Positions 40,370 through 42,650 of a stretch of DNA of 64,000 nucleotides are shown in pieces. This DNA comes from Gammaproteobacteria bacterium. Lineage in GTDB: Bacteria; Pseudomonadota; Gammaproteobacteria; Xanthomonadales; SZUA-36. The notes under the pieces were generated by a model, which saw only the letters and a list, made by a program, of their open reading frames with translations, was not told the DNA's origin and made no database searches. Where the stretch lies: NCBI GenBank assembly GCA_021772915.1, contig JAJFLB010000045.1:1-64000 (forward strand). Direction: 5' to 3'. Both the position numbers and the translations under genes were made by a program. Every line of letters starts with the position of its first letter. The first letter of the stretch is position 1.

Positions 40370-40706
40370 AAAACAGGGTGAACACGGTTCAGGCCAATGT
40401 CCTCAAACAAGAATTTGACGCCACAACCTGGAAGTAGTTGAAGCAAGAAAACTGTTCACCGACTTGAATTCTCTTCTTGACAGATGATCAGGAGGAATCC
40501 GGAAGCAGGACGCACCGGTAAGTCGACAAGGATGTCGAAACAAGGGGGTTGGGGTTAACCCACCCCCTCGCACACTGCGAGATCTGTGTGTGAGCCAATA
40601 GATTTTATTTGGTGGAACAAGGATCGTTCCAAAATTGCGTTAGGGTTCGCCCTACTGCACTCTGCGGCTAGTGCCCACATGGATTGTGGGCACTTGTTTT
40701 AATTTT
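40370..40706 (+). ncRNA. Candidate CsrB/RsmZ-type regulatory RNA
   Basis: About 335 bases with many hairpins and no protein gene. Three stem-loops display GGA in the loop in CsrA-binding context: TCGACA-AGGA-TGTCGA (40523-40538), TGGAAC-AAGGATC-GTTCCA (40613-40631) and the terminator stem with loop TGGAT (40670-40694). GGA repeats also occur at 40491-40510 (AGGAGGA, CCGGA, CAGGA). Other structures are the GGGGGT...CCCCC hairpin (40544-40567), a TAGGG-TTCG-CCCTA tetraloop (40641-40654) and a 5-prime closing pair GGTGAACA/TGTTCACC (40377-40384 with 40453-40460). RNAs of this type sequester the translational repressor CsrA/RsmA. No GacA-type TGTAAG box was seen. Confidence 0.6.
40670..40706 (+). 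terminator. Intrinsic terminator of the GGA-loop RNA
   Basis: A perfect 10-base stem AGTGCCCACA / TGTGGGCACT with a 5-base loop TGGAT is followed by TGTTTTAATTTT. The loop carries a GGA motif, as terminators of Csr/Rsm RNAs often do. Confidence 0.85.
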
Positions 40707-40710
40707 CACT

Positions 40711-40737
40711 GCACGGTTGGCATAGACGCAACCGTGC
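40711..40737. other. Perfect hairpin upstream of DUF6502 gene
   Basis: GCACGGTTG and CAACCGTGC form a 9-base perfect stem with a 9-base loop, just after the sRNA terminator and about 190 bases before the DUF6502 start. It is not followed by a T tract; it may be an operator or part of the mRNA leader. Confidence 0.4.
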
Positions 40738-40922
40738 TAACAAAGGTACGTGCTTACAGGAAGTAGTTTAATTTAACAGTGCAAGTTATTGAAAAAGATA
40801 CTATCCTATTGGATGGGTAGCTGCGTCATCTGTGACCGCTTTGTACGGAAGCGGATGGGATGCTTGGCTTGCCGAGAAATGGAAATCGTTAAGTAGCACC
40901 AGGGAAAGTTGAAGTTATTGAT

Positions 40923-41777
40923 ATGGCGAGTAATTTACAAATGAATAAGGCTCCGCCCTCAACTGACGCTGCATCACTAACTGATGCTGTTGGACTCGTG
41001 CTGCGCAGAATTGTTCGGTTAATGGTGGGGACAATATCGTTTCCAGCACTAATGGAAATTCTGAAGGTTTTGTACGTTGAAGAAGCTGAAAAGAAACTAA
41101 AAAGAACCAATTCCAAGCCCACTAAGAGTGCACTCGCACTAATAACTGGTTTGGATACAAGGGTCGTGTCCTCAGTAGTGAATAGGCGCTACGACATTTC
41201 TCTAGAGCCAAAAAATATTTGTGCTGAAAACGCACTTCTTGATATGTGGACGAATGATCCCTTTTTCTCGGACGAAGATTCAAAGGTACCTTTGGTATTG
41301 CCAATTGAAGGGCGGGGGCGCACATTTCAAGGCCTCGTTCTTCGGTCAATTGGTAGGAATATAACAGTAAAAACTGTTTTGGATAGGCTTTTATCGTCAG
41401 GAAATATAAGAATTATTTCTGACGCTACAGAGAGAGTGGAAATGCTATCTTTGTTCTATTCACCAATTACTGACGACCGCGCCAACATGACCGATATCGC
41501 GTTTATCGAGTCCTCAAGAGTTCTTAGCGCGGCTATACATAACATTAATTCGGACATTGACTCCCGAGTTCCTCAACAGGGTAGATGGACTTACAGATTG
41601 TCGCCCACCAAATATGGTGAATTCAGGCAAGAAGTTAGATTATTACTTCAAAAACAGATTAAAGAAGGGGAAGCATTACTCGAAAAATTCGAGGAAGCTC
41701 AAAAGCAACCTGGTCAACTCACGGTTGGTATCGGCTGGTACCAGTGGGGAGACCATGACTCAGAAGGTATTGAATAG
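40923..41777 (+). CDS. DUF6502 family protein, copy 1
   Basis: The 284-residue protein resembles the product of 46143-47012 over its full length. Shared features are an opening helical segment (AVGLVLRRIVRLMVG, YVEEAEKKL), a TGLDTRVVS helix resembling a DNA-binding helix-turn-helix, a central LDMWTNDPFF motif and a C-terminal LTVGIGWYQW segment. I recognise it as DUF6502, whose function is unknown; the TDLDTRTIT-type region suggests a regulator. The ribosome-binding site is weak. It is followed after 10 bases by the GTG-repeat protein, so the two are coupled. Local base composition is AT-rich relative to flanking genes. Confidence 0.75.
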   Translation: MASNLQMNKAPPSTDAASLTDAVGLVLRRIVRLMVGTISFPALMEILKVLYVEEAEKKLKRTNSKPTKSALALITGLDTRVVSSVVNRRYDISLEPKNICAENALLDMWTNDPFFSDEDSKVPLVLPIEGRGRTFQGLVLRSIGRNITVKTVLDRLLSSGNIRIISDATERVEMLSLFYSPITDDRANMTDIAFIESSRVLSAAIHNINSDIDSRVPQQGRWTYRLSPTKYGEFRQEVRLLLQKQIKEGEALLEKFEEAQKQPGQLTVGIGWYQWGDHDSEGIE

Positions 41778-41787
41778 GAGAATAGAT

Positions 41788-42546
41788 ATGTCTCGTTGGA
41801 TGATTGAAAAAAGTGGAACTGGGATTGAGAAATCTGGTACTGGGATTGAAAAATCTGGAACTGGGATTGAAAAATCTGGTACTGGGATTGAGAAATCTGG
41901 TACTGGTATTCAAAAATACTTATTCGCGTTGTCACTAGCCTGTGTAACATTTGCGGCTCAGATCAGTGCTGCAGAAATTGCCCCTGGCGGTTTGATGCAA
42001 GTAGTAGCCGATCAAGGCCGAATTTCAGTTATGTGGGTCATAGATGGAAATACATTCGTGGGAAAGGCGTCGCAAACTGGAACACATACTCAACTCTCAC
42101 TGTTTGAGGTATCAGTTGGTTATAGCCCCTCCGTCGTTGACATCGCTGGTGGTGGTACCGGTACAGAAATCGCTGGTGGTGGAACAGGGTCACAGACCAA
42201 AATCGCCGGTGGTGGTACCGGTATTGAAATCGCTGGTGGTGGCACCGGTATAGAAATCGCTGGTGGCGGAACTGGTACAGAAATCGCTGGTGGCGGAACT
42301 GGTGCGAAAATTCAAATTGCTGGTGGTGGCACCGGAAGCGAAGCCGTATTTATCACCTTACCGAAGGGCATAGGTTTAGGAGTGGAAGTTTCCTTAGGTT
42401 GCCAGAAAGCATCTGTTTCGGTCTTGGACACAAACAGTGTGGAAGTTGTTACTTTCAACAATGTCCAGATTATGGGTGATACAGGCTTGTGTGACTCAGG
42501 CGATAACGGATTTGGTCCGCAGTTTGGAACTAATAAAGACAGGTAA
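41788..42546 (+). CDS. GTG-repeat protein with repeats on both sides of a membrane segment
   Basis: The 252-residue protein starts at an ATG ten bases after the DUF6502 stop, with GGAGAA upstream. Residues 6-40 are five 7-residue repeats of IEKSGTG. Residues about 41-61 form a hydrophobic signal or anchor segment (YLFALSLACVTFAAQISA). Residues about 119-183 contain seven IAGGGTG repeats, separated by short TE, IE or KIQ spacers. The remainder has two Cys (GCQK, GLCDS). An N-terminal repeat block ahead of a signal-like segment is odd. I know no function; the Gly/Thr-rich repeats could form a beta-solenoid or amyloid-like assembly. This is inference. Confidence 0.8.
   Translation: MSRWMIEKSGTGIEKSGTGIEKSGTGIEKSGTGIEKSGTGIQKYLFALSLACVTFAAQISAAEIAPGGLMQVVADQGRISVMWVIDGNTFVGKASQTGTHTQLSLFEVSVGYSPSVVDIAGGGTGTEIAGGGTGSQTKIAGGGTGIEIAGGGTGIEIAGGGTGTEIAGGGTGAKIQIAGGGTGSEAVFITLPKGIGLGVEVSLGCQKASVSVLDTNSVEVVTFNNVQIMGDTGLCDSGDNGFGPQFGTNKDR
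41803..41907 (+). repeat. Five 21-base coding tandem repeats (IEKSGTG)
   Basis: Five consecutive units of 21 bases, of the form ATTGARAAATCTGGTACTGGG with few changes, encode IEKSGTG. There are no spacers, so this is not a CRISPR array. Near identity at the DNA level suggests recent expansion. Confidence 0.9.
42142..42336 (+). repeat. Seven degenerate coding repeats (IAGGGTG)
   Basis: Seven copies of a unit reading ATCGCTGGTGGTGGTACCGGT with changes encode IAGGGTG, separated by two to four residues. They lie in the exported part of the same protein as the IEKSGTG repeats. Confidence 0.88.
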
Positions 42547-42623: not shown

Positions 42624-42650
42624 AATGCCCCTGCATTACGCAGGGGCATT
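42624..42650 (+). terminator. Intrinsic terminator after GTG-repeat gene
   Basis: AATGCCCCTGC and GCAGGGGCATT form a perfect 11-base stem with a 5-base loop, ending in TTTTCT. It ends the DUF6502/GTG-repeat operon. Confidence 0.88.

Follow-up and report, generated by a model that had tools for sequence, protein, structure and literature searches.

A candidate peptide-sensing gene pair in Proteobacteria: DUF6502 and its GTG-tagged neighbor compared with HetR-PatX

HetR, a regulator of heterocyst control in cyanobacteria, is inactivated through the RG(S/T)GR motif of PatS, HetN, and PatX; in the part of the source available, this motif is given as the only feature common to the three proteins and as needed for suppression (PMC7761841). 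According to excerpts of PMC4649674, the PatS hexapeptide joins the HetR hood as a β strand, leading to release of DNA; Glu253, Asp270, and Asp278 of HetR contact arginine residues of the peptide, and the flap and the hood are called novel folds. PatX, according to PMC12756182, undergoes export and cleavage, and HetR is bound by its HRGTGR peptide; for PatS and HetN, processing is believed to take place in the cytoplasm, and the PatX-HetR module is tied to filamentous cyanobacteria. Receptors of the RRNPPA type in Bacillota are likewise accompanied by propeptides, some with tandem pheromones (PMC11343458, in excerpt). In the literature searched, with most subscription journals outside the search, DUF6502 is not mentioned and no account was found of HetR homologs in Proteobacteria, outside cyanobacteria, nor any description of the gene pair treated here. 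The author of an earlier note on this DNA knew of no described function for the pair.

The window analyzed is a stretch of 64,000 nucleotides from a gammaproteobacterial contig (JAJFLB010000045.1 of assembly GCA_021772915.1). Our analysis favors, with a probability of roughly 0.56, the reading that DUF6502 and its neighbor form a receptor and ligand pair, in which DUF6502 would be a transcription regulator of the HetR fold that takes as its ligand the G-[ST]-G tag carried by the exported partner.

The gene pair and its repeats

The pair and its surroundings comprise the following features.

40776-40817, plus strand: promoter-like block (CAAGT..TTGA ... TATCCTA) upstream of DUF6502, found in 10 of 13 upstream regions examined
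40923-41777, plus strand: DUF6502 gene, 284 amino acids (PF20112, E 8.5e-11); predicted HetR-fold transcription regulator
41788 (ATG) to 42546 (stop), plus strand: gene for the GTG-tag repeat protein, 252 amino acids; presumably the exported partner of DUF6502
41803-41907, plus strand: five contiguous IEKSGTG units (residues 6-40), before the hydrophobic segment
41917-41973, plus strand: hydrophobic segment (about residues 44-60) with an AXA-type site; helix predicted at residues 42-56
41992-42111, plus strand: first predicted β-meander lobe of the mature part, four strands within residues 69-108
42142-42336, plus strand: seven IAGGGTG units between the two predicted β lobes; pLDDT below 40 for most of the block
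42346-42477, plus strand: second predicted β-meander lobe, strands within residues 187-230
42624-42650: stem-loop of 12 pairs 3' of the operon, between convergent genes; terminator-like on the minus strand only

The layout described earlier is confirmed: the stop of DUF6502 is separated by 10 bases from the ATG of the repeat gene, whose product consists of M-S-R-W-M, five IEKSGTG units, the hydrophobic segment, a lobe, seven IAGGGTG units, and a further strand-rich lobe. Judged by eye, the hydrophobic segment closes with an AXA-type site (ISAA|E); should the segment be a signal peptide, the five IEKSGTG units lie on the cytoplasmic side. The DUF6502 protein passes the gathering score of PF20112 (41.6 bits against 27), with no other family found in a Pfam scan at E up to 1; the repeat protein matched no Pfam or NCBIfam family. 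The earlier note also had the operon closed by a strong terminator; the stem-loop exists, but the scan accepts a terminator there on the minus strand only, so that "strong" was generous.

Upstream of DUF6502, the promoter-like block is the only common element, and a simple scan found no shared palindrome at one place that might serve as an operator. Further upstream lies a strongly structured noncoding stretch (40440-40712, fold z -4.91) whose hairpin loops hold A-N-GGA (GGAAC-AAGGATC-GTTCC; GTGCCCACA-TGGAT-TGTGGGCAC plus a T-rich tail). Similar hairpins are found upstream of DUF6502 in relatives, and of 17 predicted pairs, 9 are maintained through changes at both positions in at least one of 8 sequences. 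We presume that the stretch resembles RNAs of the RsmY/RsmZ/CsrB type; Rfam offered no more than a weak RsmY match (18.4 bits against 57), and no match at gathering level in 12 relatives.

The repeats had been thought homogeneous at the DNA level and recently expanded, neither of which is borne out. All five N-terminal units of the window are distinct in DNA; pairwise codon differences amount to 20 synonymous and 0 nonsynonymous among them and to 51 and 0 among the seven mature IAGGGTG cores, the nonsynonymous counts being limited by the choice of units through an amino-acid pattern, which in the window covers every unit of both arrays. Differences of the synonymous kind alone point to constraint on the protein sequence of the repeats rather than to fresh duplication. 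They are also incompatible with the idea that the repeats are a functionless by-product of DNA slippage. Variable unit number would suit slippage (across 12 proteins, three of which end at contig ends, 3-7 units stand before the hydrophobic segment and 1-17 G.G[TS]G cores after it), but the motif is moreover retained in other families and classes, and we rejected this reading as hardly credible.

The earlier note had instead proposed that the repeat protein might assemble with itself into a solenoid or amyloid-like element at the surface, under the control of DUF6502. The repeat protein does resemble curli CsgA/CsgB and RTX-type proteins in being presumably exported and in its short Gly-rich repeats, which are regular Gly/Thr units of 7 residues and of 9-11 residues, and a relative (L005) gave a CsgB match far below threshold (E 0.076, with 12.8 bits where the cut-off is 165). 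Unlike those proteins, it has no family match above cut-off, amyloid families included; its AlphaFold2 model falls below pLDDT 50 over nearly all of both repeat blocks, which are thus not modeled as ordered, and a fold search with this model returned no match at E 0.001 (best 0.25). Repetition is, furthermore, not a common feature of the tagged partners, as only 22 of 67 in the class and phylum samples described below carry more than one tag. Self-assembly is consequently not supported and we regard it as very improbable, low model confidence being by itself compatible with assembly.

Likeness of DUF6502 to HetR

An AlphaFold2 model of DUF6502 built with 29 sequences reached pLDDT 79.4 and pTM 0.62. 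In a Foldseek search of the PDB its first seven matches were all HetR chains (E 7.1e-5 to 1.4e-2), the best of them, for this one model, with a TM score of only 0.45 over 316 columns; the matches that follow are mostly of MarR type and reach E 0.09 at best. With HetR and then other DNA-binding regulators as its leading matches, the predicted structure supports the earlier suggestion of a possible DNA-binding controller. RRNPPA receptors are TPR proteins, and no TPR structure is found among the best 50 of the 482 matches of the model.

On this reading DUF6502 would begin with a DNA-binding part, continue with a middle part that carries a winged element, and end in a C-terminal part like the HetR hood. 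This last part contains a helix (184-209), a short strand near 222, a second helix (228-256), and an invariant GxG stretch, an order that appears by eye to follow the α-β-α-β of the hood as described in the available text of PMC4649674; the last hood-type strand has no assignment in the monomer model.

Support from sequence is weak. An hhalign alignment of 177 DUF6502 sequences with two HetR PDB sequences is collinear (9-273 against 11-296, E 0.0016), and its score of 28.7, at a probability of only 16%, exceeds the best of 40 shuffles (18.8) and of 156 decoy proteins (25.1). A subset of 93 sequences (class and phylum only, without the Lysobacterales set) scored 18.4, which is not above the decoys, and a subset of 32 scored 27.3 over only 87 columns. 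As no HetR relatives were found in plasmids, only two near-identical PDB sequences underlie the HetR profile. With a HetR HMM, DUF6502 proteins made up 14 of the top 25 ORFs, against 210 of 2212 among all ORFs, none of them individually significant. The HetR Pfam models gave no match in 29 DUF6502 members at E up to 10; a PF18460 search of the source genome was also silent, as it was in all 14 controls, so that it says little. We read these results as likely, though unproven, remote homology of DUF6502 to HetR.

The pair shares several features with HetR and its peptides: the predicted regulator fold, the G-[ST]-G peptide core, the occurrence of the motif in otherwise different precursor proteins (PMC7761841, in part), and a precursor that is presumably exported, as is PatX (PMC12756182, in part); the counterpart of the PatX signal peptide would be the hydrophobic segment with its AXA site, recognized by eye. 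In contrast to PatS, PatX, and HetN, the tags of the window (EKSGTGI and AGGGTG) share only G-[ST]-G, without RG(S/T)GR or its flanking arginine. The pair also differs from HetR-PatX in that the candidate ligand gene is directly adjacent, the tags are present in multiple copies, here also before the signal segment, and the host belongs to the Proteobacteria. Lacking both a HetR Pfam match and RG(S/T)GR, the pair is, on sequence criteria, not classed as HetR or PatX. The RRNPPA systems, known from Bacillota, offer a likeness of arrangement in that a regulator stands beside an exported peptide precursor, at times with several copies of the peptide (PMC11343458, in excerpt); the DUF6502 model, with no TPR structure among its best 50 matches, appears to differ from them in fold.

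Distribution of the tag

The named relatives of the source genome are mostly Lysobacterales MAGs and Wenzhouxiangella. Relatives of the repeat protein were matched in 42 of 151 genomes, its own included. The full-length matches examined in families f1 and f9 repeat this layout: in every locus that extends far enough, DUF6502 lies directly upstream. This recurrence argues that the layout is not due to chance. Loci L042, L043, L044, and L045, with other, unrelated repeats and no DUF6502 in the fetched stretch, were dropped, and a phage origin was rejected, the relatives being absent from the viral contigs searched. In the named set of 31 loci, the end of DUF6502 is readable in 28, and 27 of these are followed by a partner that has at least two G[TS]G; copies stand before the hydrophobic segment in 26, the exceptions being L072, which lacks a partner, and L078, which lacks copies before the signal. 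The units vary among relatives both before the segment (IEKSGTG, IERDGTG, IGKSGTG, and IERNGTG; IEQAGTGS with a period of 8 in L216) and in the mature array (IAGGGTG, VTGNGTG, VAGSGSG, VLGSGSG, and LVGSGTG), while G-[ST]-G is constant throughout.

Some genomes hold several DUF6502-partner pairs. The source genome contains a second DUF6502 gene (G000:C68, L004:1876-4460), which overlaps the gene of a 574-residue protein that contains ISGTGG motifs and matches no Pfam family; a Wenzhouxiangella genome of family f9 (G135, L207-L214) has eight DUF6502 matches, four with their own small tagged neighbor of 55-150 residues. Further DUF6502 genes lie close behind the DUF6502-GTG pair in L016, L027, and L033, and two are arranged in tandem in L226.

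DUF6502 was found in 76 of 274 gammaproteobacterial genomes, in 21 of 398 genomes of the phylum sample, and in 57 of the 151 relatives. The ORF behind it mostly begins only a few bases from the DUF6502 stop, and its product has a hydrophobic start followed closely by the tag, typically GGIGGTGI. A strict form of the motif, [ILVMFQE].G[TS]G within the first 160 residues, was chosen after the sequences had been seen; it occurs behind DUF6502 in 57/68 cases in the class, 16/24 in the phylum, 23/29 among relatives, and 6/19 at extra loci of the order. Control ORFs downstream in the same loci carry it, in the same sequence of samples, in 6/188, 4/78, 4/41, and 1/32, and composition shuffles of the same partners do so on average in 11.2, 3.9, 2.3, and 0.9. 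DUF6502 genes without a tagged neighbor number 11/68, 8/24, 6/29, and 13/19, the extra order loci including 8 more without any ORF behind. The looser form, G[TS]G, is matched by 62 of 68 class partners and is the only form to which the window units (EKSGTG and AGGGTG) conform; it is less specific, present in 39 of 44 partners but also in 29 of 197 control ORFs, as counted with simple gene calling that missed some partners. The named set scores 12/30 with the strict motif and 27/30 with G[TS]G, the low strict score being due to K, R, or G two places before the tag.

When 90 of 92 partner ORFs were aligned, misses included (a second start in L112 and a wrong ORF in L157 were dropped), the columns of G-x-x-G-[TS]-G held their residue in 81, 84, 83, and 85 of the 90, and the tag glycines accounted for three of the five nearly invariant columns. 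In most of the Proteobacteria sampled, the tag has the consensus G-I-G-G-T-G and is present in one or a few copies just behind a signal peptide or lipobox. DUF5666 (PF18914), for which the repeat protein of the window gave no match, is the commonest domain behind DUF6502 (70 of 90 ORFs). Ten partners were picked for single scans, and the seven without DUF5666 all have G-T-G behind the signal; one of these seven is a Calx-beta/fn3 lipoprotein, and three are only 77-93 residues long. Plasmid records of Azospirillum lipoferum 4B, Rhizobium sp. K102, and Pseudoroseomonas cervicalis show DUF6502 followed by DUF5666 with GIGG[TS]G tags; that of Rhizobium ruizarguesonis lists no gene directly behind DUF6502, which an incomplete gene table may explain.

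Other partners are of different build. Those of L119, L120, L147, L151, and L211, of 55-93 residues, are barely more than a signal-like segment plus one or two GTG tags, and two ORFs behind DUF6502 have other repeats in place of the tag, many copies of GISVGD in one (L116:3764-4354) and LMKGGGVQS in the other (L131:2257-2982).

DUF5666 provides a control for the partner domain. Among DUF5666 proteins adjoining DUF6502, 62 of 67 are tagged, against 1 of 24 DUF5666 ORFs treated by the same procedure in loci without DUF6502 (Fisher 1e-15); these unlinked places were selected by hand from lists for their position apart from DUF6502 (26 loci with 24 ORFs counted), and for 4 of the 24 the test covered just an internal stretch (L272, L275, L276, and the 751-aa ORF of L278). 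Most unlinked proteins retain the signal, lipobox, and poly-Gly, and only the tag is missing; the one tagged exception is L280. Genome G170 contains both kinds, tagged in L095 and untagged in L239. The tag thus follows DUF6502 and not the domain of the partner, and its presence depends on adjacency to DUF6502. A DUF5666 protein with GGIGGTA (L284), from a genome outside the DUF6502-positive gammaproteobacterial list (G334), is perhaps a case of tag decay after loss of the regulator. At the genome level, 3 of 41 genomes chosen because they have no DUF6502 match contain DUF5666, and 54 of 62 DUF5666-positive genomes are also in the DUF6502-positive list, as compared by eye. The earlier note would have taken rarity of such repeat proteins beside DUF6502 genes as evidence against the pair; the opposite is found in the named set (27/28), in the class (57/68), and in the DUF5666 comparison (62/67 against 1/24).

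The position of the tag bears on two other readings of the pair. Within the class and phylum samples, 67 tagged partners have a hydrophobic start; a script placed the tag behind that segment in 65 of them, inspection by eye did so in the remaining two, and a lipobox-like motif lies nearby in 46 of the 67. This is where envelope-sorting signals act, so that DUF6502 could be a HetR-fold regulator of its operon while the tag serves sorting, anchoring, processing, or modification in the envelope and is not its ligand. DUF5666 proteins away from DUF6502, most of them with the same signal, lipobox, and poly-Gly, are nevertheless almost all untagged, and in Lysobacterales copies stand before the hydrophobic segment (26 of 28); we consider an envelope tag unlikely. 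Alternatively, DUF6502 might be a dedicated cytoplasmic escort, not a transcription regulator, that binds the tag and keeps the precursor ready for export, as its close pairing with the partner and the tags adjoining the signal segment, some of them before it, might suggest. The best structural matches, HetR and then mostly MarR-type proteins, are DNA-binding regulators, and an escort function appears improbable.

A possible receptor and its ligand

A HetR-fold regulator beside an exported G-[ST]-G-tagged protein fits the scheme of HetR-PatX, and by analogy the DUF6502 pair may well work in the same way. Tag peptides would be freed by proteolysis or presented on precursor not yet exported; a peptide would add a β strand to the DUF6502 hood, as the PatS hexapeptide does to that of HetR (PMC4649674, in excerpt), and so change DNA binding. 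Through such feedback, expression of the operon would respond to how the tagged protein is produced or exported, and perhaps also to neighboring cells. In Lysobacterales the tag has been multiplied into arrays, one of them before the signal segment; the precursor would then be polyprotein-like, with the ligand multiplied as in the tandem pheromone propeptides of Bacillota (PMC11343458, in part). With the array before the signal, the regulator could meet its ligand inside the cytoplasm, either on the precursor or on the signal-peptide stub that cleavage leaves behind, and the mature array could feed a signal outside.

The analysis shows the gene linkage, the dependence of the tag on a neighboring DUF6502, the constraint on the repeats, and a predicted HetR-like fold; DNA binding, tag binding, peptide release, and feedback are inferred. 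Several observations stand against a receptor and ligand pair: the tag has no flanking arginine, the units of the window conform to the looser motif only, some DUF6502 genes are without tagged neighbors, L280 is tagged though unlinked, and the arrays could not be modeled. The route by which an exported tag would reach a cytoplasmic receptor also counts against it. A direct prediction of the pair is that a synthetic tag peptide should bind the neighboring DUF6502 protein.

Our analysis suggests an unrecognized peptide-sensing gene pair in many proteobacteria. The fuller proposal, that DUF6502 and its GTG-tagged partner are a widespread proteobacterial system homologous to HetR-PatX, and that the Lysobacterales arrays let the receptor read both the state of export in its own cell and peptides released outside, is tentative, and we would put it somewhat short of even odds. 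If DUF6502 is a relative of HetR, such a regulator is present in more than a quarter of the gammaproteobacterial genomes sampled (76/274), usually beside a candidate ligand gene. A function would then be suggested jointly for DUF6502 and for the tagged DUF5666 proteins, two uncharacterized families; the finding would bear on the origin of HetR and would offer simple laboratory hosts for signaling of the HetR type.
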